From positions 124,001-188,000 of the forward strand of contig VEPM01000001.1 of the NCBI GenBank assembly GCA_012026795.1: DNA of 64,000 bases, in the 5' to 3' direction. Under the pieces are notes generated by a model that worked only from the letters and a program-made list of their open reading frames with translations, was not told where the DNA came from and ran no database searches. Source of the stretch: Candidatus Methanoperedens sp. GTDB taxonomy: Archaea; Halobacteriota; Methanosarcinia; Methanosarcinales; Methanoperedenaceae. Shown here in pieces: positions 9,767-36,186 of the stretch (position 1 is the first letter of the stretch; the number at the start of each line of letters is the position of its first letter). The position numbers were made by a program, and so were the translations under genes.

Positions 9767-9844
9767 TGATATTAACTTTAACAACATTTAATATGCGTTA
9801 AATTTATTATAAAAGCAAAAATTTTACTAATGAAAGGAATTACA

Positions 9845-11029: not shown

Positions 11030-11079
11030 CAAATTTAGAGCATGGAAAAAAGAAAATTGAACATAATTCGAATGAGCCG

Positions 11080-19287: not shown

Positions 19288-19485
19288 AAATTCTTTTAAT
19301 TAAGTCTATTTAGTACTTATCTCTATTAACTTATTAGGTTTATTTATATTGAGAAGCCTTAAAAAACTCAATATCGTATTCTATTATAATAATATTTATG
19401 GCCATATCTTTGAAATGCATGTTCATGTGTTCTCCTGAATAAAGGCAAAAGGTTGAAAAAAATACTATTAACAGAAGGAGATAAC

Positions 19486-21699
19486 ATGAAAAATATACAA
19501 TATAACTCAACTAATCACATCCTTAAAGCTACATTAATTGCCATTATAATAGTGGCAACTACATTACCACCAGCAAATGCATCACCTGATATGTCAAAAA
19601 ATGTAATCGGCAGGGCATTATGGGAACATTATTGGAATATCCAGAACACTCCTGAATATTATAATGGGCTACTTGATAGGGCTCAATATATCAATGCGGA
19701 CTCAATCGTTATGCCGTGGGGGACATGCTTCTTTGTTAAAGAGATTGCGCCAGGACAGGGATACTATGACTCACTGGGTAGAACAAAGAAAACTCTTGTG
19801 GATTTCTTAGCAAATGCACATAGTAGAAACATTACGGTTATTTTACTTTCCCCGGCTAATAAAATGACACTTACGGGAGATAGTTCATGTAAAGGGTATT
19901 TTGGCACACAGTATTTCCCTAAAGATAAAAATGGAACTAATTTAGAAAGTACCGGGACGAATTATCTGGATTTCAACTATCCTGAAGCCAGAGCAAAAAG
20001 AATCGGATTAATAAAATATGCAGTAAGCAATTTTGATTTCGATGGAGTTCTTATCGAAGAACCTGGCCTGTGGTTAGCAGGAACCACTAATACCGGATAT
20101 GGAGTTGAATGGTCAGGAAGAGAGGGTATTTTAAAAGAACATGGTTATGATATAAACATGTATTCATATCCATTTGAAAACTCGCCTCCTAATGCAAATC
20201 CGGTTTTACTTGATATGCTTCATGAGAGAGAAAAGGGAATGACATTGTTCTTCAAAGAACTCCGGGAAAGCATCTCATCATTAGGAAATGATTATAAATA
20301 TCCTTATTTTTTGATCGCGGCACAGACATATCAGACCTCGTACAATTCAGGTTGTGTTCTTGGAAATGGATGTGCTTCATACTCAATAAATCTTACAGAT
20401 TTAAATAAAAATAAATATATTGATTTATGGCTAACTGAGCGTACATCACCAGATAAAATTGGAACTTATACTCTCACCACACAAAAAAACTATTTGGAAG
20501 AAAATGTTAGAAGCACTCCTGATATTTATCATTCTGCGATAACGTATATTACGGATAGCGCCCTAAACGGTACGTACCTGAATCCATTATTCTTTGATGA
20601 AATATCAGCCATATCATCACTTGGTGGGACATCAGAAATAATTTATGCCGCTGGATTTTTAAATTATAATACATATCCACCTCTATGGAATCGAGTTCCA
20701 TCTGTATCATCTGTTTCTCCCTATGAATGGTTAAGAAACAACTTACCAAAAACTAAACGCACATTCAATCCAATTGGATTGAATGCTGACAGCTTGTCCT
20801 CGGGACTCCCAAATATTACCTCTCATCCTGCAAATAAAACAAGTGCTGTAGGGCAGGCTGCCACATTCAGCGTGGTGGCTACAGGAGCGTCGCCGGGATA
20901 TCAATGGCAGAAGAATGGCGTGAATATTCCTGGGGCGACGGGTTCATCTTACAATATTACTGTAACAGACTTATCTGAGGACAGATCAACGTTCCGTGTA
21001 AACTTGACGAACTCTTTTGGTAGCGTGGTGAGCAATGCTGCAACTTTGACAGTTGTATCAACCTCTTCAATTAATCTTGTCAGGAACCCGGGTTTTGAAT
21101 CAGGTACAACTTCATGGCTGTTCTATACAAGCGGAAATGGGACTTTCAGTACAATATCCCCTGGATACAACGGGACAAAAGCTGCCAATCTTTCATTGAT
21201 CAGTGGTGGTTCGAATATCCAGTTGTATCAGACAGGGATAACACTGGAACCAAATACCCCCTACTGGTTGAGTTTTACAGCATATTCAACAACAGGGCAT
21301 GACCTGACAGTGAATTTGATCAAACATAGTTCGCCATATACAAATTATGGTTTGAGCTTTACACCAGACCTTGGGACGAACTGGCAAACCTTTACAACTG
21401 AATTTACCACAAATGGTTTCTCAGGAACAGTGAATGATGCACGTTTGATGTTCCAGCTTGGGCAGTTTGTTGCTCCAGGAGATAGATATTATATTGATGA
21501 TATAAGACTGGAGAAGGTCGAAAATACCAATAGTATCTATGATATAAACAATGATAGCATCGTGAATAAGTATGATCTGTTTGAAGTCTCTCTTCATTTT
21601 GGTGAGAATACAGCAATACCTTACCCGATTTATGATGTAAATGAAGATGGAAAAGTAGATCTTTCGGATTTAATTTTGGTGAGTAGCAATATTATTTAA
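19486..21699 (+). CDS. Secreted glycoside-hydrolase-like protein with Ig, CBM4_9 and dockerin-like C-terminus
   Basis: The preferred ATG has GAAGGAGAT just before it; an in-frame TTG at 19453 is less likely. The 737-residue product has a signal peptide (to about 34) and a 400-residue TIM-barrel-like domain resembling the GH10-like 'GHL' families ('FDGVLIEEPGLW' could hold the acid residues). These are followed by an Ig-like domain (about 442-525), a CBM4_9-like module (530-685), and a C-terminal pair of 12-residue calcium loops, 'DINNDSIVNKYDL' and 'DVNEDGKVDLSDL'. The two loops are the type I dockerin pattern. It should act outside the cell on a polysaccharide. Catalytic activity is inferred only from fold resemblance. 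The neighbouring convergent gene has a similar N-terminal domain. Confidence 0.8.
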   Translation: MKNIQYNSTNHILKATLIAIIIVATTLPPANASPDMSKNVIGRALWEHYWNIQNTPEYYNGLLDRAQYINADSIVMPWGTCFFVKEIAPGQGYYDSLGRTKKTLVDFLANAHSRNITVILLSPANKMTLTGDSSCKGYFGTQYFPKDKNGTNLESTGTNYLDFNYPEARAKRIGLIKYAVSNFDFDGVLIEEPGLWLAGTTNTGYGVEWSGREGILKEHGYDINMYSYPFENSPPNANPVLLDMLHEREKGMTLFFKELRESISSLGNDYKYPYFLIAAQTYQTSYNSGCVLGNGCASYSINLTDLNKNKYIDLWLTERTSPDKIGTYTLTTQKNYLEENVRSTPDIYHSAITYITDSALNGTYLNPLFFDEISAISSLGGTSEIIYAAGFLNYNTYPPLWNRVPSVSSVSPYEWLRNNLPKTKRTFNPIGLNADSLSSGLPNITSHPANKTSAVGQAATFSVVATGASPGYQWQKNGVNIPGATGSSYNITVTDLSEDRSTFRVNLTNSFGSVVSNAATLTVVSTSSINLVRNPGFESGTTSWLFYTSGNGTFSTISPGYNGTKAANLSLISGGSNIQLYQTGITLEPNTPYWLSFTAYSTTGHDLTVNLIKHSSPYTNYGLSFTPDLGTNWQTFTTEFTTNGFSGTVNDARLMFQLGQFVAPGDRYYIDDIRLEKVENTNSIYDINNDSIVNKYDLFEVSLHFGENTAIPYPIYDVNEDGKVDLSDLILVSSNII

Positions 21700-21734
21700 C
21701 AAATATTATATTATTAAACAATTAAAAAAGAAAA

Positions 21735-21760
21735 GATACTTTCGATTTATCGAAAGTATC
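21735..21760. terminator. Perfect inverted repeat between convergent genes
   Basis: GATACTTTCGAT is followed after two bases by its exact reverse complement ATCGAAAGTATC, between the stop codons of the convergent genes ending at 21699 and 21772. It is preceded by an A-rich run. It could form a bidirectional terminator hairpin or be a protein-binding palindrome. Confidence 0.55.
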
Positions 21761-21771
21761 TACAAACCCAA

Positions 21772-24531
21772 TCATACCGTATTGCTGTCATTGATCATTT
21801 CCAATCGTATATCATCAATGTAGTATATATCCCTGGCAGAGGCAAATGGTCCAAGCTGGAACGTCAAACGTGCATCATTCACTGTTCCTGAGAAACTGCT
21901 GGTCTTAAATTCAGTTGTAATGGTTTGCCAGTTCGTTCCAAGATCTGGTGTAAAATCCAGACCATAATTAGTATATGGTGAATCATGCTTGATCAACTTC
22001 ATGGTCAGATCATGCCCTGTTGTAGAATATGCTTTAAAACTCAACCGATAGAGGGTATTCGCTTCCAATGTTATTTCTGTATGATACAACTGTATGTTTG
22101 TACTGCTGCTGCTCAAAGCAAGCTTTGCAGCATTGTTCCCCTCATATCCTGGAGAGGACATACTGAATGTCCCGGAGCCACCTGTGTAGAATAACCAGGA
22201 TGTGCTTCCCGATTCAAACCCTGGATTGCTGAGTAAATTATTGGCTGGGCGTAAATCCGTGGTGAACTGCCAGTTATACGGTGAAGCCATATTAGTGCCG
22301 GATAAATCCTTTGCATCATTTCCAATAATTACATTGTAAACTGTATTGTATGAAAGGTTCACAGGGGTATAAGTCATATTGTTTCCCGACCAGCTGAAAT
22401 CACCTGTTGTTTCCGGAATAGTGGAGAATGATGATTGCACCGATGACTTGTCCATCGCCTTACTGAATTCCACCGTTATCTTCTCTTCTACAGAAACGTT
22501 CTTTCCTGTTGGCGAATTTTCGATCACTTCCGGAGGTATGACTTTCTCCAGTCGGATATCATCTATATAATAAATGTCTCCTGCTTCTGCAAAATCTCCA
22601 ATGAAGAACATCAAGCGTGCATCATTCACTGTACCTGCAAAATCGCTTGAAGTAAATTCAGTCGTAAAGGTCTGCCAGCTTGTTCCCATATCAGGTATAA
22701 AATCCAGACCGTATGGATCATATGGGGAATCATGCTGAATCAAACGAACTTTCATTCCATGTCCGGTTGTGGAATAAGCCGAAAAACTCAAACGATATTG
22801 TGTGTTAGGTTCCAATATTATATCCGTTTGATATAACTGGATGTTCGATCCGCTACTCTTTAAATAGAGCTTCGCAGCATTGTTTCCCTTATAGCCCGGA
22901 GATACAATACTGAATGTTCCCAGGCCATTCGTGTAGAATGTCCATGAGTTGTCTCCTGATTCAAATCCCGCATTGTTGATAATTGTAGGTGTCAAATTTG
23001 TATCCGGTGGGCTAATAGTATATGTTGCTGTGACTATATCGCTTGGTGTTAATCCCGATTTCCATGCTCTTGCTTTCAAAGTTTTAGTTGAGGAAATAGT
23101 GATCGGGCCTGAGTATGCTGGAGAGTATTCGGTTGGTGTAGTGCCATCCGTAGTATAGTGTATTGTTGCACCGACAGTACTTGTTGAGATCGAGATACTC
23201 AGTGGGCTTGAATAAGTGCCTGAATTATAAGAGAGTGTTGGGGTTGCGACCGTTGGAACTATAACTGGTGTGGGGGTAGCTGTCGGAGAGTTTGTCGGGA
23301 CTGTTGATGTTCCACAGGAAGACGTAGGAATGCCCCGCAAAGTATTCATGATATTCTGTCCGTTTATAGTTCCCGCTAAATAGACCCAGGAGAAGATACC
23401 CACAGCGTCTGCACCGTATTTACACGCAGTTGCAGCCCTATCGAAAAATACAGGATTTGGCAAATTTCCTGTAGAAGAATGATAATACGGATATATTGTT
23501 GCGACTATGGGGATCTCAGGAATGGCTTTTGAAGCATCCTGAACTTTTTTCCCGAAACTGTCCATAGTATTACCGCCAATTTGAAGCGAATACCAATCAA
23601 TCAGGTTATTTTTAGCCAGATATTGCGGGTCAAGTCCGGCGATAGTTGCTGAGCTATACCAAATAATCCAGCTGTTTGCAGATAATTGAAAATCAGGGTT
23701 AGCCTTGTTGGCATTTATAGAGTTTCTTAATCTTGTGAAAAATGTATTCCATGAATCTCTTTGTATATCTGTAATATCTTTTTGTACCTGTAACTGGGTT
23801 CTTCCTCCAGGATACAGCGGGTCATAACCATATTTATTTTTTACCTTTTCACGCACTGCTGTTGAATATGAATAATGCAAAAGAACGGGTTCTTCAATAT
23901 GAAGCCCATCCAGAGTTGGATAATGTTTCGCTACCCATGTATACAAACCTATTTCGTAATCTTGAAGTTCTTTGAATGATATATCCAGGCGGTAATATGA
24001 ATTTGATTTAATTTTACTCCCGGATTGGGTAACTATATTAAATGGATAATTAGCAGAAGGGCCAAAAAGTCTATATTCTGCCCTGAATGAACCACTAACG
24101 ATGCTAACGGCAGACCACGCATGAACCTGTATATTATTTGCATGAGCTTTCTTAATAAAATATTCAAGCATGGGTAATCCATTATATGTCGGCTTCGCTC
24201 GATCATCCCAGCTTGCTTTATTTACCGGGTCGCGGGTTGCTTCAAAATATTCACTACCTACCTGTACTGCAATAGCATCAGCCTTTATGGCAACAGCATC
24301 CGAGATAATCTTGTCTATTTTTGCTGTGGTATCAAGTGCGCCTCCCCATTCATTTACATAAAGCAAACGATTGAAAGGCTGTCCTTCTGAAGCACCTGCT
24401 ACATCCATTCCCCCAAACGCTAATATTAATAATAACATAATGCTGAGAATGGATTTATTGTTTATTGGACAATTTCTTAAAACATTTTTAATAACTTCTT
24501 CAGAATTTTGCCGCATAATTGTATAACTCAT
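21772..24531 (-). CDS. Secreted glycoside-hydrolase-like protein with CHB_HEX_C, Big_5 and two CBM4_9 modules
   Basis: This 919-residue protein has a hydrophobic signal segment at about 26-46 after a longer than usual N-terminus. An AAGGTGATT ribosome site supports the start. Residues about 50-415 look like a GHL10-type TIM barrel ('LLYVNEWGG', 'LDGLHIEEPVL', 'PIVATIYPYYHS'). A Thr/Pro linker leads to a chitobiase-C-terminal-like domain ('TIHYTTDGTTPTEYSPAYSG'), a CBM4_9-like module, a Big_5-like domain and a second CBM4_9-like module. The protein probably cleaves or binds surface polysaccharide. It shares the 'IEEP' region and the CBM with the convergent neighbour, so the two may be a functional pair. 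The upstream 24532-24803 gap is AT-rich without recognised features. Confidence 0.8.
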   Translation of the reverse strand: MSYTIMRQNSEEVIKNVLRNCPINNKSILSIMLLLILAFGGMDVAGASEGQPFNRLLYVNEWGGALDTTAKIDKIISDAVAIKADAIAVQVGSEYFEATRDPVNKASWDDRAKPTYNGLPMLEYFIKKAHANNIQVHAWSAVSIVSGSFRAEYRLFGPSANYPFNIVTQSGSKIKSNSYYRLDISFKELQDYEIGLYTWVAKHYPTLDGLHIEEPVLLHYSYSTAVREKVKNKYGYDPLYPGGRTQLQVQKDITDIQRDSWNTFFTRLRNSINANKANPDFQLSANSWIIWYSSATIAGLDPQYLAKNNLIDWYSLQIGGNTMDSFGKKVQDASKAIPEIPIVATIYPYYHSSTGNLPNPVFFDRAATACKYGADAVGIFSWVYLAGTINGQNIMNTLRGIPTSSCGTSTVPTNSPTATPTPVIVPTVATPTLSYNSGTYSSPLSISISTSTVGATIHYTTDGTTPTEYSPAYSGPITISSTKTLKARAWKSGLTPSDIVTATYTISPPDTNLTPTIINNAGFESGDNSWTFYTNGLGTFSIVSPGYKGNNAAKLYLKSSGSNIQLYQTDIILEPNTQYRLSFSAYSTTGHGMKVRLIQHDSPYDPYGLDFIPDMGTSWQTFTTEFTSSDFAGTVNDARLMFFIGDFAEAGDIYYIDDIRLEKVIPPEVIENSPTGKNVSVEEKITVEFSKAMDKSSVQSSFSTIPETTGDFSWSGNNMTYTPVNLSYNTVYNVIIGNDAKDLSGTNMASPYNWQFTTDLRPANNLLSNPGFESGSTSWLFYTGGSGTFSMSSPGYEGNNAAKLALSSSSTNIQLYHTEITLEANTLYRLSFKAYSTTGHDLTMKLIKHDSPYTNYGLDFTPDLGTNWQTITTEFKTSSFSGTVNDARLTFQLGPFASARDIYYIDDIRLEMINDSNTV

Positions 24532-24803: not shown

Positions 24804-26318
24804 TCAAAATAAATTTCTAAGATTCCATATACTGATATTCCCATTATCAAATACCTTGTCAACCTCATCGATTCTTGATCCCAAAAATACAGAAATAGCT
24901 CTCTCATTCTTTATGTAATAATTAATATTGAAATTTTGAGCAAGATTGCCCCACCTGCCATCTAAACCCTCTGAATTTAATTTATACCACATCCATGTGG
25001 TCATTCCGGTTTGGTTTTCCAAATTGTAAGGGCCATCTAAATAAAAAAGACTCGAGAATGGAGACCTCATTGACACATTGAAATCTCCCAGATAACCTTG
25101 AACAGGATATACTACAGGGCCTTCACTGAACATAGTTATTCCCGAATAAGCAAGCACTCTGCGGTTAAGTACCCCATCGTCAGTATATACCAATTTGTTC
25201 GTAAATGATTTGGTCCATTGAGCAGCATTAATGGTACTTTCTTCTGCCCAATATGCATTTGATTTACTTTGACCTTCAATATTAGACCTGCCAAATTGAT
25301 AATACTCTGAAACTCCCATAGAAATTATAATAAAGATTAACATAATATAATATGCAGTTTTCCTGTTTTGGGATATCCTGATCAGGTTCACAACTCCATA
25401 GCTTGCCAGCAATGCTTCCAGAGGTAACATGAAATATTTGGCATACATCACGATTCCAAAAAGAGGCGTGAAAAATAATAAAACCAATATGATAAAACTT
25501 TCTTCAAAGGTTCTATTTTTTTTAAACAGAAGAGAAATGAAACCTCCTATTGCGAAAAAACCCATTATCCCGACATATCTGGAATAATTGAGAATTAATT
25601 TATCCAGAGTAGTTTCCTGGATGGAAAGCTCCATAAATAAAAATATGAATAATGCTAATAGTACTATAGATCCGAAAAAAACCGATGATTTGAATTGAAT
25701 ATTGCGAATTAATACAGCAAAGAAAAAACTTAGTACAATAGGAATAACGAGTAAAAAGAGATTATGTGTCGCAAAAAGCAATATAAATAATAGAATAGTA
25801 AATAAAACATATTTTAATTTAGAAAAGCGATATTTGATCAGGAAATAAATAAATAATGGTAACATCACCAGGAAAAAACCCCTTCCTGAGGCGCTCCATG
25901 TTGTCAGATACAATATTCCCGGTGATGTTGAATATATAAGTGCTGTAATAAACTTGAATATTTTATCATTATTTATCACTCCTGCCATTAAATATGATGT
26001 AAATAAACTAAAAATCCCTAACGATACCAGAGCAACCCAAATTGCCTGTTCCATTTCCAGAGATATTAATTGTGACACTCCGGATAAAAAAAAAGGCAGG
26101 GCACTTGCCTGAGAAAAAGGATACAAACCAACTATTGAGAGTGGATGGATCCACCATTTTGCATGACCGGATACAGATATGGAATCTGAAATAAAGTGGA
26201 TCAGGAACGAGTCATTTCCGATTTCATGGGGCGTTACGGGGAATCTCAAAATAACATTGATAAGAATCAGGCAAATCCATAGAAAAATCCAGCTGCGTTT
26301 TGAAAAATTATAATCCAT
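24804..26318 (-). CDS. Polytopic membrane protein, GT-C-like
   Basis: This 504-residue protein has about ten to twelve hydrophobic helices in its first 350 residues and a soluble C-terminal part of about 150 residues. The first extracytoplasmic loop contains 'HEIGNDSF', an acidic motif in the place where GT-C glycosyltransferases keep a catalytic Asp or Glu. Such enzymes use lipid-phosphate sugars outside the membrane. I do not recognise the exact family, so the assignment is structural only. It is the last gene of an eight-gene operon and begins four bases after the GT2 gene. Confidence 0.6.
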   Translation of the reverse strand: MDYNFSKRSWIFLWICLILINVILRFPVTPHEIGNDSFLIHFISDSISVSGHAKWWIHPLSIVGLYPFSQASALPFFLSGVSQLISLEMEQAIWVALVSLGIFSLFTSYLMAGVINNDKIFKFITALIYSTSPGILYLTTWSASGRGFFLVMLPLFIYFLIKYRFSKLKYVLFTILLFILLFATHNLFLLVIPIVLSFFFAVLIRNIQFKSSVFFGSIVLLALFIFLFMELSIQETTLDKLILNYSRYVGIMGFFAIGGFISLLFKKNRTFEESFIILVLLFFTPLFGIVMYAKYFMLPLEALLASYGVVNLIRISQNRKTAYYIMLIFIIISMGVSEYYQFGRSNIEGQSKSNAYWAEESTINAAQWTKSFTNKLVYTDDGVLNRRVLAYSGITMFSEGPVVYPVQGYLGDFNVSMRSPFSSLFYLDGPYNLENQTGMTTWMWYKLNSEGLDGRWGNLAQNFNINYYIKNERAISVFLGSRIDEVDKVFDNGNISIWNLRNLF

Positions 26319-26322
26319 AATA

Positions 26323-27213
26323 TCATGTCCTTCTGGACTTATTATTAAAATAATATTGCCAGATCTCCCTGGGTTTTCGATAATAATAATATTCCCTGAT
26401 TACAGGGTCATTTGTTTTTTCTTTTCGATGTATGTAACTGCTAATATATCCGAATAAATATGCAAATCCTAAATAATGCGGTCTCTTGAAACAATACTTA
26501 AATCCTTTTGCAGCAACAATACATGGATTCATATCCAGGTAATATTCAGAGGTGCCTTTTAAATAATAACCTTTTTTCAATCCTTCTGCGCTACCTGTTT
26601 CTCTTGAATGGATCATTTTTATATCATTAAATCTTTTAATTTTCCATTCTTTTAGCATTGCTTTCACCCTCATAACGCTTTCCCATGCATAAGATACCGG
26701 AACTCCGCCAATTTCCTCAATACATGCTCTCCTGCACATCATTTCACCCCCTGAAATTGTATCATATCGACTTTGGGCATCCTGCAAATTACCAGAGGCA
26801 TCGATATATTGGATATTTCCACTTGCAATTCCTAGATCCTCATCTTTTTCAAATACGGCGAGGAGTTTTTTAAAAAAATCGTTGTCTTGCGTATACATAT
26901 CAGAATCAAGAAACATAATACAATCATATGTCATGGTATGTTCTTTACAAAAACTTTGTGCAAAGTCAAAGCCTCTTTTTATAACTTCAGAGATATGAAT
27001 CGTCAGATCCCTGTATCCTTCATTTAAATAAATGCTTTCAACCCAGCTATGATTTTTCCTGGTATCTTGTATTATCTCGGATGTTTTATCAGTGCTTCCA
27101 TCGTCTACAATGACCCATAATGCCGGTTTGATTGATTGGGATAATATTGATCGGATTAAATCCTTTAAACTTTTTTCTTCATTCTTAACCGGTGTAATAA
27201 TTATGTAATTCAT
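26323..27213 (-). CDS. Glycosyltransferase family 2
   Basis: This 296-residue GT-A enzyme has 'ITPVKNEEKSLKDLIRSIL', 'IVDDGSTDKTSE' and the metal-binding 'FLDSDM' near residue 123. The family includes dolichyl-phosphate-sugar and similar synthases. There is no clear transmembrane segment, and a basic, aromatic tail may associate with the membrane. It lies between a DUF354 gene (five bases away) and the GT-C-like membrane protein (four bases away). It might make a lipid-linked sugar donor for that protein, which is inference from the pairing. Confidence 0.85.
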   Translation of the reverse strand: MNYIIITPVKNEEKSLKDLIRSILSQSIKPALWVIVDDGSTDKTSEIIQDTRKNHSWVESIYLNEGYRDLTIHISEVIKRGFDFAQSFCKEHTMTYDCIMFLDSDMYTQDNDFFKKLLAVFEKDEDLGIASGNIQYIDASGNLQDAQSRYDTISGGEMMCRRACIEEIGGVPVSYAWESVMRVKAMLKEWKIKRFNDIKMIHSRETGSAEGLKKGYYLKGTSEYYLDMNPCIVAAKGFKYCFKRPHYLGFAYLFGYISSYIHRKEKTNDPVIREYYYYRKPREIWQYYFNNKSRRT

Positions 27214-27218
27214 AACTC

Positions 27219-28274
27219 TTACAGGATATTTGAGAAACTATCCGGGAAATTTTCGACAAACTCGATCATAAATTTTGACACATCAATTTTATCTTTTAAC
27301 ATGTTATCCCTTTTTTTCGCCCAGGTACCTTTTATGTCTTCCTGCTCTAATAATTTAATTGCAGTTCCAAGAATATTGTCATATGATCTTTCAACTTCTG
27401 AAAAACTGAAGATCAGACCATATTTTTTTTCTTGTTCATCAATATATCCAGTACGCAGGTTATTGATGTAGATCGCCGGCGTGCCAAGTACGGCAGCCTC
27501 GCTGGCCATTGTACCGCCTTCTCCGATATACAGTGTCGCATAGCTAAGCAGGTCATGCAGCATTTCCGGTCCTACTTTGATACGATAGGCTTCAAAATCT
27601 TCCGGAAGTGCTGTTTCCGATGAAATAAATACTTTACCATATTTTTCCAGTTCTTTTATTAATTTTAATTTCATTTCAAAACTTAATCTTTTTTGGCCAA
27701 CATCATGGATAGCATTCCACGAAACAAAACGAAATATGAAAAAAACATCGCCCTTGCTCAGGTTCATTTTAGATAATATTGACGGATCCGGCCGGAAATG
27801 ATCTGGATGAAGGTACGCCAGCTCAAAATAACCATTGAATCGAACTTGTTTCCTGCCAAAGTCTTTTTTAAAGCAATCCGATGTGACTATTGCTGAAGTA
27901 AATGGTAATACTATTTTATGTAAATTTTCAACGTGTTCGGTATCTTCAAAAACGATAAAAGGTTTCTTCAATAAAGCACTGACATGGGCAAAGTGGGGCA
28001 AAGCCTGTCCTATAAAAATATCCGGCCGAAATTCCAGGGCTATTCTAAGTGTATAATATTCCCACATTATCAAATTTAATATTTTCTTAAATAATGTCGG
28101 TTGATTTTTTCCAATGACATCATATTTAATATTAAATTTCTCAAGAAGGTATCCTGTGATTTCTTTTTCAACCAGGACTACCCTGACTTCGTGATCCCTC
28201 GCACTCATCGCCTTTATGAAGTATTTAAACATATATACTTGCTTCGGATGTGAGATCCCGATTAAAATTCGCAT
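27219..28274 (-). CDS. DUF354 family protein (UDP-GlcNAc 2-epimerase/GT-B-like fold)
   Basis: This 351-residue protein has the DUF354 pattern: an N-terminal 'ISHPKQVYMFKYFIKAM', 'RPDIFIGQALPHFAHV', and a C-terminal 'YIGEGGTMASEAAVLGTPAI' nucleotide-binding loop like that of UDP-GlcNAc 2-epimerases and GT-B enzymes. The family is common in archaeal polysaccharide clusters and its activity is not established. GAGGT stands six bases before the start. It starts only a few bases from the end of the kinase-like gene upstream, so it is part of the same operon. Confidence 0.82.
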   Translation of the reverse strand: MRILIGISHPKQVYMFKYFIKAMSARDHEVRVVLVEKEITGYLLEKFNIKYDVIGKNQPTLFKKILNLIMWEYYTLRIALEFRPDIFIGQALPHFAHVSALLKKPFIVFEDTEHVENLHKIVLPFTSAIVTSDCFKKDFGRKQVRFNGYFELAYLHPDHFRPDPSILSKMNLSKGDVFFIFRFVSWNAIHDVGQKRLSFEMKLKLIKELEKYGKVFISSETALPEDFEAYRIKVGPEMLHDLLSYATLYIGEGGTMASEAAVLGTPAIYINNLRTGYIDEQEKKYGLIFSFSEVERSYDNILGTAIKLLEQEDIKGTWAKKRDNMLKDKIDVSKFMIEFVENFPDSFSNIL

Positions 28275-28278
28275 GGAG

Positions 28279-28926
28279 TTACCTCTTTGATGAATTGAAC
28301 AGTTTTTCCTCTAAGTATTTTTTAATTTCTTCATTAACAATTTCAAAGGGTTTGGATGTGTTGAATATGGGATAACTGTTTTCTTTGGCAATTTCCAGAT
28401 ATTCTTTTCTTTCACAAGAAAGCTGGTCTGAATTATATAATATATGATTACCCCTGTAATCTATTGTTTCCATTGATTTTTCCAGAGGCGCATCAAGCAA
28501 TAAGCCAATATCGGTTCTAATATTTTTCCAGATAGGACGCAACCATTCTACATGGTAATTCAGGGCTTTTGATTTTATGAGAGTCGCGCATACAAACCGA
28601 TCAAAAATAATAATATCATAGTCTCTATATTTCCATTTGCTGTAGTAGAACATCAAGATGTTATCAAGCAAAGCCACGGGAGGTTTAAGTAAAGCTGAAA
28701 ACGAATATTTTGCGGGAGTATAAGGCTTCAAAGAATCACGATTTCTCCCGCTATCCACATACTTCCCGACCCGTCTTTTCAGTACATCTGCAAACATCCA
28801 TTTATGAAATGGGATAATTATGCAATTTAATTCCTTTTCCTTAAACCATGAACCTATTTTTTCCGCATGAGTAGATTTTCCAGTGCCGTCTACTCCAAGA
28901 AATGCAATTGTGATTTTTTTTTCCAT
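28279..28926 (-). CDS. Thymidylate-kinase-like P-loop protein
   Basis: This 215-residue protein of the thymidylate kinase superfamily has a Walker A 'GVDGTGKST' near residue 12 and a 'DIIIFDRFVCATLI' segment matching the DR motif of TMP kinases. The lid and base-recognition parts are not canonical, and the protein lies within a polysaccharide operon. A role in phosphorylating an unusual nucleotide or sugar is therefore as likely as dTMP metabolism. It sits between an HprK-like gene (46 bases) and the DUF354 gene (four bases). Confidence 0.75.
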   Translation of the reverse strand: MEKKITIAFLGVDGTGKSTHAEKIGSWFKEKELNCIIIPFHKWMFADVLKRRVGKYVDSGRNRDSLKPYTPAKYSFSALLKPPVALLDNILMFYYSKWKYRDYDIIIFDRFVCATLIKSKALNYHVEWLRPIWKNIRTDIGLLLDAPLEKSMETIDYRGNHILYNSDQLSCERKEYLEIAKENSYPIFNTSKPFEIVNEEIKKYLEEKLFNSSKR

Positions 28927-28972
28927 TTCATACCTTCTTTAATCTTTGCACTCATATCATAGCAATAATTCA

Positions 28973-30052
28973 TTATTCTTTCAAAATCAAATTTATGTTA
29001 CTACTCACTTCTTTAAATACAACATCATCATACTCGCCTGGAATTTCCATCTCATATATGGGTATGCCTTTTAAAAAACCAATAAGTCTGTTTTTCATAT
29101 TTATCCAGTGTGCAGCGATCTGACTTTCCGGAAAAATAAAAGAATATGCCAGCATGTATTCAAAAAACGGATTTGAAGATATGCCCATGAGATTGGGCAT
29201 ATAAGCATGGTTCATTTCCATCATATTATTTGCGATTAATTTATCAACGGCTTTTTCCAGGTCATATTCATTTAGAGTCATTGATTTTCTTGCGGATTTT
29301 TTAACGATAAAAAACAGTGCCTTTAATTCAGACCTCTCAGGGACATTTACTTTAAGCCGCCCCAGATTGTCGTAATTATTGATATTATGTTTTATCAAAC
29401 CTATTTTATCCAGAAAATTACGTTTATTTTCTGTTGGTAAATAGCTGCATCTGTAATCAAATGAAATCAGGCCAACCGGATAACTCCGGATTTGTCCGTC
29501 ATTAAATATTACTCTTTCATCTCCGAAAAAATCAAAACCTGCTTTCCGGATAAAATCCATTGCCAGGGTTGTTTTGAATGCTCCTCCCATCCCAGCCAGC
29601 AGAAATGCCTTATTATCTTTTCCAAGGCCTGCGGAATGGATTAAGAAATATCCTTTACTTGATAATTTATAATCAATAACAGAACTCAGGAAAAGATTAT
29701 GGGCACTTAAGATGGGCAGAAAACCCCTTATTCCGGGAACCTTAATATCGAAGTTTATTATCGTGTCTCCTGATTCGAATCCGGATAGCTCCACTTCCCA
29801 TTTCGTTGTACCTTCCGAATCCTTACAGTAAAAATAATTGTTTTTTATATAATATTTACCATCAACAATATAACTATCTTCATTCGACGGCTTAAACTTA
29901 CCGATATTAAGGATAATATCCGGTTTATCTACATGATCGACCTCAAAAAATCGATGCTCAATATTAAAATAGTTAAATAAATTAAATTTTTTATCTATTA
30001 AAATTTGAAATTTTAATATGTTATGAATATTGTAGTTTAATGTTTGTTTCAT
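28973..30052 (-). CDS. HprK-like P-loop kinase
   Basis: This 359-residue protein has a C-terminal half resembling HPr kinase/phosphorylase and PEPCK-type P-loops: 'FLLAGMGGAFKTTLAMDFI' is the nucleotide-binding loop, followed by 'FFGDERVIFNDG' as the usual acidic strand. The N-terminal 130 residues are unlike known HprK domains. Archaea lack the sugar phosphotransferase system's usual HPr target, so the substrate is probably different. HprK-like proteins occur in glycan and peptide-modification clusters of bacteria. It is third from the end of the kinase/ATP-grasp/PHP set by transcription order and should be co-transcribed with it. Confidence 0.75.
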   Translation of the reverse strand: MKQTLNYNIHNILKFQILIDKKFNLFNYFNIEHRFFEVDHVDKPDIILNIGKFKPSNEDSYIVDGKYYIKNNYFYCKDSEGTTKWEVELSGFESGDTIINFDIKVPGIRGFLPILSAHNLFLSSVIDYKLSSKGYFLIHSAGLGKDNKAFLLAGMGGAFKTTLAMDFIRKAGFDFFGDERVIFNDGQIRSYPVGLISFDYRCSYLPTENKRNFLDKIGLIKHNINNYDNLGRLKVNVPERSELKALFFIVKKSARKSMTLNEYDLEKAVDKLIANNMMEMNHAYMPNLMGISSNPFFEYMLAYSFIFPESQIAAHWINMKNRLIGFLKGIPIYEMEIPGEYDDVVFKEVSSNINLILKE

Positions 30053-30099
30053 GTTTTATCCTTACCAGTGTGAGATATATTTATTTATTTTTCCTTATA

Positions 30100-31263
30100 T
30101 TATTTATGTCTGCTGCCAAGGACGTCCTTCAATCCCTTATAAGCGAACATCATAGCAGGTAATGCGTCATTAATCGAAAAAGCATCATAATAAAGGTCTT
30201 TTTCATAGAATTTAAAAAATTCCTTAAACGTTGCAAAGCGATGGTTTGAATTTTTAAGATGGCTGATAAGAGCACGGAAGTCATTTAACAAAAAACGGGT
30301 CTTAACACCGACCTTATAATTAAAAACCGGCTTAACATCACCGAATAAAGCCATTTCATAGAGGAGGTATGGAAAATTAACACCTGCAGCAATCGCCTGG
30401 TATACAGATCCCCAGAAACGCGGATTAACCTCGATAAGGACTGGCCTGTTGGTGCGCTCATCGAGTTTAAATTCCACCATTGCAACCCCATGCCAGTTAA
30501 CGTGATCCAGTATCTTCCTGGCAGCTGTCTCCATCTCCTGGTTCCTGACACTTACCCGCAATGTGCTTGGTCCGCCCGTTATAGGATATTCCCTCAATCT
30601 CTTATGGGTGAATGAGGCTCTGATGTCTCCCTGGTTATAAAGCATTGACACACCATATCCGGATCCGGGTATATACTCCTGCACGATAGGATATTCCGAA
30701 GGTTTAAGATTAAATTTCTGGATTGTTTGCCTATATTTTGAAACAAATTCAGAGGCGGAATATACATAAGATATACCGACACTGCTTGTTGCGTTTCTTA
30801 ATTTGATCACCACCGGATATTCCATTTCTTTTGAGAATTTTTCTATGTCTGCGGCATTAACGATCTCATACGTTCCTGGAATACGTATATCAAGTTCCGA
30901 TGCGAGCCTCATAACTTCATTTTTATTATGAAGTTGCATCATTTTTGGGAAATCCTCAAAAGGTACTTTTGTAAATGGCGTAAATTTTTCTTTATATTTT
31001 GAAATAAGATTTGTTTCCGTGCTATTAATCGGCATTAAAACATCGATTTTATTTCTTTTTATATGATTTTGAATGGAGTTTACGAAATCAGTTTGTGTTC
31101 TTTCTGGAGGAGCACACAGGAAATGATGTTTAGAATACCTGGAAAAAAATGCCGCAGATAAATATTCACAATCCGTAGTTGTAATTTCTACACCTTTTTT
31201 ACCCAGGCTCTGTGTAACTACAAGACCTTTAACATTTGATGCATTTGTTATAAGTACGCTCAT
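30100..31263 (-). CDS. ATP-grasp carboxylate-amine ligase-like protein
   Basis: This 387-residue ATP-grasp enzyme has an N-terminal pre-ATP-grasp domain ('MSVLITNASNVKGLVVTQSL'), an ATP-binding lobe ('YPVVIKLRNATSSVGISYV', 'PIVQEYIPG') and the metal-binding carboxylates in 'MVEFKLDERTNRPVLIEVNP'. This family joins a carboxylate to an amine or thiol through an acyl-phosphate. GAGGTGATT at proper distance confirms the start. The gene stands 10 bases after a PHP domain gene. It could attach an amino acid to a sugar or lipid carrier in the glycan made here. Substrates cannot be read from the sequence. Confidence 0.85.
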   Translation of the reverse strand: MSVLITNASNVKGLVVTQSLGKKGVEITTTDCEYLSAAFFSRYSKHHFLCAPPERTQTDFVNSIQNHIKRNKIDVLMPINSTETNLISKYKEKFTPFTKVPFEDFPKMMQLHNKNEVMRLASELDIRIPGTYEIVNAADIEKFSKEMEYPVVIKLRNATSSVGISYVYSASEFVSKYRQTIQKFNLKPSEYPIVQEYIPGSGYGVSMLYNQGDIRASFTHKRLREYPITGGPSTLRVSVRNQEMETAARKILDHVNWHGVAMVEFKLDERTNRPVLIEVNPRFWGSVYQAIAAGVNFPYLLYEMALFGDVKPVFNYKVGVKTRFLLNDFRALISHLKNSNHRFATFKEFFKFYEKDLYYDAFSINDALPAMMFAYKGLKDVLGSRHK

Positions 31264-31273
31264 TATAGTTAAA

Positions 31274-31981
31274 TCACCTCAATAAGATCTTACGCAAACC
31301 GGCGTTAAATAGACCTGTTATTCCGGCTTTATTATATTTACCAATCCCTGCACTTAACATACGGATGTGAAAGGGAGACGTATTCCCCCATGTGTTTACT
31401 TTTCCGTCAAGCAGATATTTCCTGATGTCTTCGCTATTATTGGATATTCTTTCGCCAGTCAGGACCAAACGCACGCGTCCTATTTCAAAAGATGTATGAG
31501 CATCGCTTCCCGCAGCTATTTTTTTTCCAAATTTTTTGGATAAAATGCTGGCTTTTTCATTCAATTTTTTTGAAATTCGTGAATTCATTACTTCTACCAT
31601 GTCAACATCCGTGACCAGGTCCTCTGGATTTGCGAATTTATTTTTATACGGATGCGGTAAAATTGATATCCCTCCCTGATCTTTTATAATATCAATTACA
31701 TCTATAAATCTTCTTGAAGTTATGTTTTCATTTAAAAACAATCCGATCACATCCCCCTTATCAGTCGATATTTCCGACCCCGGGATGACCATGAAATCAT
31801 CGCCTGCAAGAGATCTCATCTTTTCTGCACCAGCCATTGTATTATGATCGGTTATCGCTATCCCTGAAAGACCCCTTTTCCTGGATATTTTGATAATTGT
31901 TTCCGGCTGCAAAGTTGAATCATGTGAGTATTTGGAATGCACATGTAAATCAAGATTATATATCGTTGGTACCCTTTTCAT
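31274..31981 (-). CDS. PHP-domain metal-dependent phosphoesterase
   Basis: This 235-residue PHP protein has motif 'LDLHVHSKYSHDS' (metal ligands HxH), 'GIAITDHNT' (D-H), 'ILPHPY' and 'AGSDAHTS', so the main metal-binding positions are present. PHP enzymes of this size are usually histidinol-phosphatase-like or act on nucleotides and phosphosugars. It is a stand-alone cytosolic enzyme and not the domain of a DNA polymerase. It lies 14 bases after the deacetylase-like gene and 10 before the ATP-grasp gene. It probably removes phosphate from an intermediate of the pathway. Confidence 0.88.
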   Translation of the reverse strand: MKRVPTIYNLDLHVHSKYSHDSTLQPETIIKISRKRGLSGIAITDHNTMAGAEKMRSLAGDDFMVIPGSEISTDKGDVIGLFLNENITSRRFIDVIDIIKDQGGISILPHPYKNKFANPEDLVTDVDMVEVMNSRISKKLNEKASILSKKFGKKIAAGSDAHTSFEIGRVRLVLTGERISNNSEDIRKYLLDGKVNTWGNTSPFHIRMLSAGIGKYNKAGITGLFNAGLRKILLR

Positions 31982-31995
31982 AGCATTTTGTCATA

Positions 31996-32796
31996 CTAAT
32001 GTTTATTTTTCCTGTACCGGATAATTCCTGCTTTCCCGATATTTTTCAGGTTTTGTAATACCAATTCCCCAATCCAGTCAATAATTCGGCCATGCCATCT
32101 GTCCGGGTGCGCCAGAAGACATATCCGGGGATATCGTTCTTCTTTTATCAAATTAATGATATCATCTGTTGTTGATATATTTCCAACCAATAAATTATTT
32201 TTTTGATGATCCTTGATAACATCTTTTACCCTGATATTCTTATCCGCCCAGGTACGACCAGTATCTGTAAGGTAAATAACATCTTTATAATCAAGGGATA
32301 GATATGGTTCACCAATGATTCCAAAATCCCTGAAATCATATTTATTCCAGATATTCGAATTCAACCATGGAGAAAACGGATTCCCATGCATACATACGGT
32401 CCTTATATCGGTAAATTCCCGGAATGTGTTCAGTTCCTGACCAAATATCTTAATTGCCTCCCCCATATCGCCTTTTGCTTTATCAAGTGTTTCATAGTGA
32501 TATCCGATCTCATGCCCCATAGCGGCTATTTCCCGGAAATATTCCGGTTTAAATACTTTTTCTGTCGTTCTGCAATAATAAGTAGAAACCAGATTTAATT
32601 CATGTTCAATCCTGGCCATTTTATGTGCATTAGAAATATTTCTGTCTACATCATGCCTCAGGAGGATGCAATTATTTGGTGATTTTTCCTGATTAAAATA
32701 TTGCTCAAAAGTAAATGTGGTGTATGAAGAATTTGAAATTGTTTCACACAATGTCTTGTATTTTTCCAATGTAAAATCTATATTCAATTTTCTCAT
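31996..32796 (-). CDS. Polysaccharide-deacetylase-like protein
   Basis: This 266-residue protein has the NodB-like signature 'LLRHDVDRN' (metal-binding Asp pair), 'GHEIGYHYETLDKA' (histidine motif) and 'LLAHPDRWH' near the C-terminus. There is no signal peptide. It differs clearly from the protein at 18271-19287, although both belong to the same broad superfamily. It starts the eight-gene minus-strand operon after a 127-base gap from the PEF-CTERM gene. N-deacetylation of a sugar, or of a lipid- or nucleotide-linked precursor, is the plausible activity. Confidence 0.8.
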   Translation of the reverse strand: MRKLNIDFTLEKYKTLCETISNSSYTTFTFEQYFNQEKSPNNCILLRHDVDRNISNAHKMARIEHELNLVSTYYCRTTEKVFKPEYFREIAAMGHEIGYHYETLDKAKGDMGEAIKIFGQELNTFREFTDIRTVCMHGNPFSPWLNSNIWNKYDFRDFGIIGEPYLSLDYKDVIYLTDTGRTWADKNIRVKDVIKDHQKNNLLVGNISTTDDIINLIKEERYPRICLLAHPDRWHGRIIDWIGELVLQNLKNIGKAGIIRYRKNKH

Positions 32797-32923: not shown

Positions 32924-33529
32924 TTATTTCCTTTTCTTCATTATGAAAAGCAATGCCATTATGGCTATAACCGGCAGCATTATTGATGGAAATTCCGGAA
33001 TTTCATCAACTTTTTTAGTTGTTGTTTGTGTGTTAAAACCTGTGTTACTGCCACTACCTTCATATCCATTAACACAGGGGGGAGACTGTATTTCGAGTTC
33101 TCCCCCGTTACCGGATACTAATTTAAAAGTAGAAATCCCATAAGGAATATGGAGATCTATCCTTTTTATTTGTTTAGGCAACAAATTGATTGTAAAATTC
33201 AAAGGATAAATAGTAATGGATTCATTATCAGAAATGAAATTACTTAGCCTTACGTCAATAACACGTTCAATATCGCTTTTATTAGTACAGGTTAGTATCT
33301 CTCCGGAAAAATTTGATTTTATGGATTCCGGCTGTGGATTTTCCTGGAATACTGCAGAGCTCAAGTTAGATAATTGGAGGTTTTCTGTATTTGATTTTTC
33401 AAGAACATTGTTATCCAGAATTGTATTAGCTCCATTTTTTTCAGTTCCGTATCTTTCATTTATAACTAATATGCCGATTAAGATAAACAATGATATTAAC
33501 AATATTATTCCTTTTTTAATAACGGTCAT
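32924..33529 (-). CDS. PEF-CTERM surface protein
   Basis: This 201-residue exported protein has an N-terminal hydrophobic segment (about 7-24) and a C-terminal sorting tail 'IPEFPSIMLPVIAIMALLFI' ended by basic residues. This is the archaeal PEF-CTERM pattern recognised by archaeosortase C. The centre (about 85-150) looks like a small beta-sandwich and is followed by a Gly/Thr-rich linker. The function of the mature domain is not recognised. After cleavage the protein would be lipid-anchored at the cell surface. No archaeosortase gene is present in the window. Confidence 0.82.
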   Translation of the reverse strand: MTVIKKGIILLISLFILIGILVINERYGTEKNGANTILDNNVLEKSNTENLQLSNLSSAVFQENPQPESIKSNFSGEILTCTNKSDIERVIDVRLSNFISDNESITIYPLNFTINLLPKQIKRIDLHIPYGISTFKLVSGNGGELEIQSPPCVNGYEGSGSNTGFNTQTTTKKVDEIPEFPSIMLPVIAIMALLFIMKKRK

Positions 33530-33679: not shown

Positions 33680-34042
33680 CTAAAGAAATTTCCGGATAAT
33701 ACCGTCCGGCAGTTTATAATATTTTTTAATTATATTGATAAATATTTTTTCCTGGGCGAATTTAGTCATGGAATAATTATCTTCGAAATCCTCGATATTT
33801 TCAAGGTCTTTGGCGACAAGCCGCATCCTGACACTTGAACCCGGGAGATTGAGGTGTTTTTCCAATTGAGATAGTGCATTAATAAAATAACCTGAACCGA
33901 CAGCTCTATCAGGGCCTATATTTTTTACCATTCCGCAATGGATGCAGTAAGGGTGGGATTTTAAAACTATAGGGCGCTCTCGTATAATATACGGCAGCCA
34001 CACCTTCTCAATATTTCCACAATCTACATGTTCGCATTTCAT
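33680..34042 (-). CDS. Small cysteine-rich protein of unknown function
   Basis: This 120-residue protein has two cysteine pairs near the N-terminus ('KCEHVDC' and 'YCIHCG'), consistent with one zinc site, and a helical C-terminal part rich in Lys and Ile. The 'CxHCG' pair resembles a zinc ribbon knuckle. There is no signal peptide. I do not recognise the family. Its ATG has only a weak GAGAG before it. Possible roles are nucleic-acid or protein binding. Confidence 0.65.
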   Translation of the reverse strand: MKCEHVDCGNIEKVWLPYIIRERPIVLKSHPYCIHCGMVKNIGPDRAVGSGYFINALSQLEKHLNLPGSSVRMRLVAKDLENIEDFEDNYSMTKFAQEKIFINIIKKYYKLPDGIIRKFL

Positions 34043-34355
34043 TTATTTTGTTCTCTCTTGTCATGACACAACTTTACTGGTCATATAATTATCTATTGCA
34101 ATGATATATATTGTTATAATGATTATCGTGGGTATTTTAATTCTCATGAATGTTTTGGATCGCCAGAATTTCCGATATCTGACTTACTGAAATTCGGAAA
34201 CAAAAATCAATAGTATGAACGCTATACATCCGAATCTACTGCAAGTCCATGATGAGGTAATTGATATTCACATATAAATACTACTTTAACTATAACTTGA
34301 ACCGATAGTATATTGAACAAGAGATATTAAATAAAAATTCCAAGGTGTGATTTTA
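34043..34355 (+). promoter_or_regulatory. Intergenic promoter region of the CDP-sugar cassette
   Basis: This stretch separates the divergent gene at 34042 from rfbF. CATATAAATA at 34271-34280 is a good archaeal TATA box candidate about 76 bases before the ATG, which leaves a leader of about 50 bases. An AAGGTG ribosome site lies at 34342-34347. No ORF is seen. Confidence 0.5.
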
Positions 34356-35126
34356 ATGAAAGTAGCGATTCTTGCCGGGGGATACGGCACACGTTTAGCA
34401 GAAGAGACAGAAATAAGGCCAAAGCCACTGGTCGAGATAGGAGGAAAACCGATCCTGTGGCATATTATGATGCACTACGCTCACTATGGTTTCAAAGATT
34501 TTGTTATAGCCCTGGGATATAAAGGTGAAGCAATAAAAAAATACATGGTGGACTATTGTTCTTTGAATAGTGATCTGACCATCGATCTTAAATCAGGCAA
34601 AATAGAGATGGATGGTGGCTACAAACCCGACTGGAAGGTAAAACTTGTTGACACGGGGACGAATACCCAGACAGGGGGCAGGATCAAAAGACTTGCGCAG
34701 CATCTTGGCAATGAGACATTTATGTTAACCTGGGGGGATGGAGTATCTGATGTTGATCTTTATAAACTTCTGGCATTTCATCGCTCGCATGGAAAATTAG
34801 CCACCCTGACAGCCGTAAGACCTCCTGCGCGTTACGGTCACCTGAAATTTGATAATAACAGGATAACGGAATTCACTGAAAAACCCCAGACGGGTGAAGG
34901 CTGGATAAACGGGGCTTTTTTTGTACTTGAGCCGGGTGTTTTTGATTATATCGCAGGCGATGAAATAGTATGGGAGAAAGAACCTCTGGAAGGACTTGCA
35001 AGGGATGGGCAATTGATGGCCTATCAGCACACGTCTTTCTGGCAATGTATGGATACATTACGTGAGAAATATATACTGGAGAAATTATGGCAAAGCGGAA
35101 AAGCACCCTGGAAAATATGGGAGTGA
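34356..35126 (+). CDS. rfbF: Glucose-1-phosphate cytidylyltransferase
   Basis: This 256-residue nucleotidyltransferase should make CDP-glucose from glucose-1-phosphate and CTP. The signature 'ILAGGYGTRLAEETEIRPKP' opens the protein, 'WGDGVSDVDLY' carries the metal-binding aspartates, and 'NGAFFVLEPGVFDYI' and 'FWQCMDTLREKYILE' are the RfbF-specific C-terminal motifs. A GTG lies in frame nine bases upstream, but AAGGTG fits the ATG at 34356 better. It is followed after four bases by an SDR enzyme and then a C-methyltransferase. The three probably make a deoxy, branched CDP-sugar for the surface glycan. Confidence 0.93.
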   Translation: MKVAILAGGYGTRLAEETEIRPKPLVEIGGKPILWHIMMHYAHYGFKDFVIALGYKGEAIKKYMVDYCSLNSDLTIDLKSGKIEMDGGYKPDWKVKLVDTGTNTQTGGRIKRLAQHLGNETFMLTWGDGVSDVDLYKLLAFHRSHGKLATLTAVRPPARYGHLKFDNNRITEFTEKPQTGEGWINGAFFVLEPGVFDYIAGDEIVWEKEPLEGLARDGQLMAYQHTSFWQCMDTLREKYILEKLWQSGKAPWKIWE

Positions 35127-35130
35127 GAAA

Positions 35131-36183
35131 ATGAAAGTATTAGTGACAGGACATAACGGTTATGTAGGCACGGTCATGATGCCCATGTTAATAAAAGCAG
35201 GGTATGATGTTACAGGGCTTGATTCGAACCTGTATAAAGGCTCAACATTCGGGGAAATGGTTAGAACCGAAGACTATCCTGAAATAGAAAAAGACATACG
35301 GGATATCCGGTCTTCTGACCTGAAAGGATTTGAGGCCATAATTCACTTAGCCGGCCTTTCAAATGATCCCCTGGGGGATCTAAATCCCGACCTGACGTTT
35401 GAGATCAATCATAAAGCATCAGTGAGACTGGCAAAACTTGGTAAAAACGCCGGAGTAAAACGTTTCATTTTTTCATCATCATGCAGTAACTATGGTGCAG
35501 GCGGCCAGGACTGGCTGGATGAAAAATCAGCTTTCAATCCGGTTACACCATATGGCACATCCAAAGTTCGTGTTGAACAGGAGGTATCCGGACTTGCAGA
35601 TGGTAGTTTCAGCCCGACTTTCCTGCGAAGCGGTACTGCATATGGGGTCTCACCGCGCCTGCGTTTTGACCTGGTATTGAATAATCTGCTGGCCTGGGCA
35701 TATACCACAGGAAAGGTCTTTCTGAAAAGCGATGGCCTGGCATGGCGTCCGATCGTGCATATCCGGGATATGTCGCTTGCTTTCCTGTCTGCCCTGGAGG
35801 CCCCCATCGAACTTGTCCACAATGAGGCTTTCAATGTGGGCCGCACAGAGGAAAATTACCGCGTACGGGATCTGGCGCAAATTGTTGCAGAAACCGTACC
35901 TGGCAGTAAAATAGAGTACTCCTCAGGGGCTGAACCTGATAAGCGTAATTATCGTGTGTTATGTAATAAAATAGCAGAAACGCTTCCGGGATATAAACCA
36001 TGCTGGACTGCCAGGCAGGGCGCAAAAGAATTGTATGAAGCTTATAAGAAAATCGGCCTTCGCCAGGAAGAATTTGAAGGATCCCGCTACCGCCGTGTAG
36101 ACCATATCAAGCAATTGTTAAGTAGCGGCCTTTTGGATGATACCCTTCGCTGGGTTAAAGATGCTAAAAACCAGGAGAATTAA
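35131..36183 (+). CDS. NAD-dependent extended SDR sugar epimerase/dehydratase
   Basis: This 350-residue protein starts with the NAD-binding 'VLVTGHNGYVG'. It has 'HLAGLSNDP', the catalytic serine region 'SSSCSNYG' and the Tyr-x3-Lys motif 'YGTSK', and ends with the substrate-binding part seen in extended SDRs. An open frame extends to 35062, but GGGAGTGAG before the ATG at 35131 is the clear start. The position after rfbF suggests a CDP-sugar as substrate, but the sequence is closer to general sugar epimerases than to RfbG (CDP-glucose 4,6-dehydratase), so 4,6-dehydration is unproven. The next gene starts only three bases after its stop. Confidence 0.88.
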   Translation: MKVLVTGHNGYVGTVMMPMLIKAGYDVTGLDSNLYKGSTFGEMVRTEDYPEIEKDIRDIRSSDLKGFEAIIHLAGLSNDPLGDLNPDLTFEINHKASVRLAKLGKNAGVKRFIFSSSCSNYGAGGQDWLDEKSAFNPVTPYGTSKVRVEQEVSGLADGSFSPTFLRSGTAYGVSPRLRFDLVLNNLLAWAYTTGKVFLKSDGLAWRPIVHIRDMSLAFLSALEAPIELVHNEAFNVGRTEENYRVRDLAQIVAETVPGSKIEYSSGAEPDKRNYRVLCNKIAETLPGYKPCWTARQGAKELYEAYKKIGLRQEEFEGSRYRRVDHIKQLLSSGLLDDTLRWVKDAKNQEN

Positions 36184-36186
36184 ATA

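Follow-up and report, generated by a model that had tools for sequence, protein, structure and literature searches.

The probable product of an eight-gene operon of the archaeon Candidatus Methanoperedens is a modified cell-surface amino sugar, whose amine is plausibly the group to which archaeosortase C (ArtC) joins its substrates, secreted proteins with a C-terminal PEF-CTERM signal. The operon occupies positions 24804-32796 of the analysed window, a stretch of 64,000 nucleotides that corresponds to bases 124001-188000 of contig C1 in a genome of 3.59 Mb. We propose that it is the glycan-synthesis arm of the ArtC/PEF-CTERM anchoring system, with an amine-bearing glycan as acceptor, and regard the chances of this proposal as evenly balanced. 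It is based on operon conservation, modularity, protein folds and families, and genomic linkage, from which we infer which substrates are used, in what order the steps proceed and that the glycan acts as acceptor. The result would be a surface-glycan operon tied to CTERM sorting, with ATP-grasp and kinase modules for which the published bacterial examples examined offered no counterpart. Throughout, G000 denotes the window's own genome, other G numbers denote compared genomes and L numbers denote extracted loci.

The eight open reading frames all lie on the minus strand, start with ATG and, in transcription order, are DEAC (deacetylase-like), PHP, ATPG (ATP-grasp), HPRK (HprK-like), TMK (thymidylate-kinase-like), DUF354, GT2 and GTC (glycosyltransferases), with intergenic gaps of 14, 10, 47, 46, 4, 5 and 4 bases (n = 7). 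An earlier note on this DNA had described eight same-strand genes with short gaps, and its coordinates, strand and gap range of 4-47 bases were all confirmed. The complete gene order is kept in 2 of 30 other Methanoperedens genomes. One of them, Candidatus Methanoperedens sp. BLZ2 (G044), is the closest named relative; its operon proteins are 90-97% identical to those of the window, the HprK-like protein being 95% identical, and strain BLZ2 was also the sole match when HPRK was queried against the genome collection. The other, G064, is more distant (41-70% identity, gaps of -17 to 38 bases). Since the order is kept in G044 and in the distant G064, the arrangement is not due to chance. Joint conservation in other archaea, a check set beforehand in the earlier note, was thus found, and the objection that gene order is not conserved elsewhere fails. 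Promoter and terminator scans of the operon region with sigma-70 type models were uninformative.

Two features absent from the earlier note, a PEF-CTERM gene upstream and linkage to archaeosortase C, provide the best clue to the function of the operon. The gene directly upstream (32924..33529, minus strand) encodes a secreted protein that ends in the PEF-CTERM signal of archaeosortase C substrates, detected by TIGR03024 at 27.2 bits (cut-off 23). Two PEF-CTERM signals were found in G000, this one and another about 4 kb from artC, and G044 and G064 likewise have exactly two each, one of which either adjoins the operon or shares its contig. The artC gene of G000 (G000:C1:108073-108813) belongs to the ArtC family, scoring 240 bits with TIGR03762 (cut-off 100). 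In G064, a single 45-kb contig bears the operon, a homologue of the PEF-CTERM protein (48% identical), a homologue (82%) of a 120-amino-acid protein encoded further upstream in the window (33680..34042, minus strand), and an archaeosortase gene 10 kb from DEAC. The 120-amino-acid protein is Cys/His-rich, belongs to no known family and travels with the PEF-CTERM/archaeosortase locus: relatives occur in G044, G063 and G064, and a similar-looking one was recognised by eye in G223. Among 22 DEAC-bearing genomes, the distance between DEAC and an archaeosortase gene was at most 1 kb in 9 and at most 15 kb in 13, compared with expectations under random placement of 0.04 (1 kb) and 0.39 (15 kb); in G303, outside this set, it was about 3 kb. 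Typing as ArtC was limited to the gene of G000 and two DEAC-adjacent genes, in G080 (411 bits) and G223 (136 bits), both of which exceed the cut-off of 100.

But does such proximity imply a role in sorting? A serious rival is that a cell-coat glycan merely adjoins the sorting genes: the operon would serve ordinary surface-polysaccharide or S-layer/N-glycan decoration and provide the cell coat with a modified amino sugar, with the ArtC system as a mere neighbour and without any anchoring role. We regard this as a realistic possibility, if short of probable. It fits the position of the operon in a large glycan region with a flippase, many glycosyltransferases and sugar methyltransferases, as well as the presence of HPRK homologues in glycan clusters unrelated to sorting and of the DEAC-DUF354 core without a detected archaeosortase in G148, G344 and Bacteroidota. 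It accommodates less easily that DEAC lies less than 1 kb from an archaeosortase gene in 9 of 22 genomes, and that one of the only two PEF-CTERM genes of G000 is the immediate upstream neighbour of the operon.

Several further observations weigh against an anchoring role. The artC gene lies 47 kb from the operon on the same contig in G000 and on another contig in G044, and the linked genomes are not independent because many belong to one family; beyond this family, the linkage was seen in G223, G303, G063 and G064. DEAC-DUF354 pairs were also found on a haloarchaeal plasmid and on a plasmid of Spirosoma (Bacteroidota); occurring on plasmids and, as in G148 and G344, without a detected archaeosortase, the core is therefore not dedicated to sorting. 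Nor is HPRK linked to archaeosortases elsewhere, save for a loose case in G056 with an archaeosortase-like gene about 11 kb from an HPRK pair; a general partnership of the two was ruled out, as the HPRK genomes tested showed no close linkage apart from this exception. ATP-grasp and FemAB genes are not mutually exclusive either, since 6 of 38 DEAC loci have both and 7 have neither, and the 6 loci with both speak against a strict replacement of one by the other. Finally, the second metal histidine typical of NodB proteins is absent from DEAC, so that deacetylation itself is no more than plausible.

If the operon does serve anchoring, its products might act as follows. DEAC, perhaps together with PHP, would free the amino group of an acetamido sugar; ATPG could then acylate this amine with an amino acid or a different carboxylate, and the DEAC clusters of related archaea often include a gene for a FemAB-like protein. 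From this sugar, DUF354, GT2 and GTC would assemble and transfer a glycan, either lipid-linked or at the surface, while HPRK and TMK may add a phosphate or diphosphate as a lineage-specific decoration. ArtC would finally join the new C terminus of PEF-CTERM proteins, for example of the one encoded upstream, to the glycan amine as nucleophile.

A comparable logic is known from bacteria. Secreted proteins of Porphyromonas and Tannerella carry at their C terminus an amide-bonded sugar, which in turn bears serine or glycine; this amino acid was proposed to be installed by VimE, a putative deacetylase, and VimA, which is related to FemAB, and relatives of VimA were noted beside exosortase genes (PMC7468200). 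The statement of the earlier note that there is no known precursor pathway is not supported as it stands, since it takes no account of the bacterial Wbp/Vim pathway, in which an amino sugar is deacetylated and furnished with an amino acid, giving a protein-linking sugar (PMC7468200). The operon shares with this pathway a deacetylase-like and an amide-forming enzyme for an amino sugar and the genetic link to protein sorting, and a related cluster in G043 encodes a VimE-like protein (95 bits, cut-off 440). It differs in that its deacetylase-like protein belongs to another family, none of its proteins matches VimE, and ATP-grasp stands in place of VimA/FemAB; Wbp enzymes were not demonstrated (WbpA and WbpB were not sought). 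Bacterial extracellular polysaccharide (EPS) clusters of the PEP-CTERM/exosortase type (pepcterm_femAB, TIGR03019) likewise unite a sorting enzyme, CTERM proteins, a polysaccharide deacetylase, a FemAB-like protein and glycosyltransferases, whereas clusters of the window's type have an archaeal sorting enzyme and signal, DUF354 and GT-C glycosyltransferases, and added ATP-grasp, PHP and kinase genes. With the ArtC/PEF-CTERM system itself (TIGR03762/TIGR03024), the locus has in common the upstream PEF-CTERM gene, artC in the same genome and archaeosortase genes beside homologous clusters in many genomes of one related family. It departs from that system in that its core genes also occur without archaeosortases and in the glycan operon, which is not part of the system as described in the papers examined (Haft et al. 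2012 on archaeosortases was not among them). The most specific version of our proposal reads that ArtC amide-links PEF-CTERM proteins to the product of DEAC-type operons, an aminoacylated amino sugar, and that, in Methanoperedens, an ATP-grasp ligase replaces FemAB while the HprK-fold kinase and the thymidylate-kinase-fold enzyme phosphorylate this archaeal anchoring sugar; in this full form, we consider it rather unlikely.

For archaeosortase A (ArtA), the amine was proposed to come from an ethanolamine lipid; this proposal arose from the synteny of artA with pssA and pssD and has experimental support (PMC7157517). In much the same manner, the linkage reported here singles out particular enzymes, with which the question of the ArtC acceptor becomes testable. 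If true, the proposal would extend amino-acid-bearing linking sugars from bacteria to archaea. In anaerobic methanotrophic (ANME-2d) archaea, some multiheme cytochrome genes bear PEF-CTERM or PGF-CTERM domains (PMC5244752), and the anchor may therefore matter for the extracellular electron transfer of methane oxidisers.

DEAC (31996..32796, minus strand; 266 amino acids) is the first gene of the operon and a core gene of the related clusters. Its product has zero matches in Pfam or NCBIfam and marginal matches only in a sequence search of the PDB. Nevertheless, it resembles a divergent NodB/CE4-like protein: a profile of 30 sequences aligned with canonical NodB-type deacetylases across 79 columns at a hhalign probability of 92%. 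R47, H48, D49, D51, H95, H100, E102, H137 and H230 are invariant, with HDVD and GHEIGYHYE as motifs. Of the Asp-His-His metal triad of CE4/NodB enzymes, HDVD and H100 align, while the second position of the H-x3-H motif is not a histidine. From its sequence, DEAC is a plausible deacetylase. When 393 genomes of the phylum were searched with a DEAC profile, 84 contained relatives. At three loci from three genomes (L126:9249-10949, L127:9873-11597 and L128:9168-10877), a second polysaccharide-deacetylase domain of canonical appearance is fused to DEAC, and a further DEAC copy follows or is nearby. Distant relatives are also encoded on seven IMG/VR contigs (L177-L183).

The partner of DEAC in the core is DUF354 (27219..28274, minus strand), a GT-B-type glycosyltransferase-like protein (PF04007, 57 bits) encoded by two genes in total in G000; its sequence found no match in the PDB, and a literature search on DUF354 found no paper. 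Of 29 DEAC loci of the phylum whose sequence extends 5 kb or more downstream, 24 have DUF354 after DEAC on the same strand within 8 kb, and in one more the two overlap (25 of 29). GT2-GTC and PHP-ATPG each recur elsewhere as adjacent pairs. The core DEAC-DUF354(-GT2-GTC) is thus widespread, and PHP-ATPG is a recurring module. Between these genes, variable inserts encode FemAB-like proteins, hexapeptide acyltransferases, WbqC, formyltransferases, PIG-L deacetylases, more ATP-grasp proteins and methyltransferases, which point to chemistry on the amino group of a sugar. An ATP-grasp or FemAB-like gene is present in 31 of 38 DEAC loci, often together with PIG-L, formyltransferase or WbqC genes. 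In the window, a FemAB gene is located outside the operon (16828-17775), and in G064 one lies upstream of it.

The earlier note had read the eight genes as an undescribed pathway for a phosphorylated or amino-acylated lipid-linked sugar. A conserved glycan-modifying set was indeed found, and amide-forming and phosphorylating chemistry is a reasonable expectation; however, the eight genes are not a natural unit, as the core, PHP-ATPG and HPRK-TMK are separable. An isolated new pathway of eight genes was rejected since core and modules recur separately.

HPRK (28973..30052, minus strand) and TMK (28279..28926, minus strand) are a lineage-specific insert. A TMK close to that of the window occurs in 3 of 186 genomes of the order (G000, G044 and G064), with HPRK adjoining every time. 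The HPRK profile matches HprK and PEPCK structures, and its AlphaFold model (23 homologues, pLDDT 88.5) resembled PEPCK and HprK/P with Foldseek probabilities up to 1.00 and nothing else credibly. A P-loop with the Walker A lysine (GMGGAFKT), a histidine (H139), K160 and an acidic pair (178-179) are conserved, in line with an HprK/PEPCK-fold kinase. It shares fold, Walker A motif, conserved histidine and acidic residue with HPr(Ser) kinase and the HprK-like kinases of lasso-peptide clusters, but has an N-terminal region of its own, a glycan-cluster setting and scores far below all HprK family cut-offs: it falls outside the HPr kinase families (TIGR00679, HprK_rel_A/B), matching HprK_rel_A and HprK_rel_B at 1e-6 with 27.8 and 26.4 bits versus cut-offs of 200. 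GAK-type systems consist of an HprK-related kinase B and an ATP-grasp protein; such a system was rejected here as HPRK stays below the cut-off of the kinase B family. TMK is a thymidylate-kinase-fold kinase (PF02223, 45 bits) and a paralogue of the housekeeping tmk elsewhere in G000. It scores 35.8 bits versus the dTMP kinase equivalog cut-off of 83.25, and a better Thymidylate_kin match (141 bits) at G000:C12 rules it out as the housekeeping dTMP kinase.

Could the two kinases instead set the function of the operon? In lasso-peptide clusters, HprK homologues phosphorylate the C-terminal serine and partner with a nucleotidyltransferase, which then adds one or more hexoses to the phosphate (PMC8498205). 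By analogy, the operon would phosphorylate or phosphoglycosylate a peptide or protein, which we consider improbable. This reading draws support from G316 (L143:8151-10902), where HPRK adjoins a 574-amino-acid protein with an NTP_transf_5 domain (PF14907) fused to a thymidylate-kinase domain, and some archaeal HPRK relatives are found beside PqqD and an apparent radical SAM enzyme. The window operon, on the other hand, contains no visible gene for a precursor peptide, PqqD or a nucleotidyltransferase, and no part of the scaffold is less conserved than HPRK and TMK, both of which are missing from most related clusters. The fusion locus of G316 is an independent association of HPRK and TMK and suggests that glycan clusters of archaea contain a kinase-kinase-nucleotidyltransferase module.

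Beyond the genus, relatives of HPRK are encoded in glycan clusters, in many cases by two or three genes in tandem. In several archaea (L018:8696-11761, L016:8803-10852, L017:7524-9649, L141:8834-11045 and L142:8894-11060), such tandem genes adjoin GT4/GT2, B12-radical-SAM and large membrane proteins. More distant HprK-like proteins are encoded beside an apparent radical SAM protein at L152:7387-9708, together with a PqqD-like protein, and at L151:9219-11518; these are possible archaeal peptide-modification systems of the ScmC/SynChlorMet type. A literature search for HPr kinase together with archaeal glycosyltransferases found no paper.

For the remaining genes, the annotations of the earlier note were largely borne out. 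PHP, ATPG, TMK, DUF354 and GT2 pass Pfam cut-offs, as that note had assigned them; DEAC, HPRK and GTC have no Pfam match and are recognised through profile or model matches, DEAC without the second metal histidine. PHP (31274..31981, minus strand) is a CehA/McbA-like metallo-hydrolase (PF02811, PF13263) with intact HxH, TDHN, PH and SDAH motifs. ATPG (30100..31263, minus strand) is an ATP-grasp carboxylate-amine ligase similar to PRK12767/PRK06849 (PF15632, PF02655), with PDB matches to 2pn1 and to 3vot, an L-amino acid ligase. GT2 (26323..27213, minus strand) is a family 2 glycosyltransferase (PF00535, 57 bits). Its partner GTC (24804..26318, minus strand) is a membrane glycosyltransferase of the GT-C fold with PHExGxDSF in the first loop; the model is moderate (pLDDT 65) and best matches STT3/AglB/PglB, ArnT and ALG12.

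The rest of the window and of the genome holds further genes of note. A divergent operon (34347-37416) encodes a sugar nucleotidyltransferase, an epimerase/dehydratase and a C-methyltransferase (Methyltransf_13/14), which suggests a branched deoxysugar; two more Methyltransf_14 genes are located at 9830-12303. At 19453-24531 and 5217-6587 are genes for large secreted proteins that share similar C-terminal repeat modules and weakly match a CelK cellobiosidase model; two of these genes adjoin the operon, and the proteins possibly bind or hydrolyse surface glycans. A PGF-pre-PGF domain protein (153 bits) is encoded at 55819-56838. Beside artC lie genes for a DegT aminotransferase and a NeuD-like hexapeptide acetyltransferase, considered as candidates for the nucleotide-sugar enzymes WbpA/B/D/E, but the models that fit them best are for other sugars and score below cut-off. 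A second archaeosortase-family gene of G000, on contig C8 (L176:8231-9109), is below the ArtC cut-off and adjoins a gene for a 791-amino-acid protein with a different CTERM-like tail; the locus near the HprK pair of G056 resembles it.

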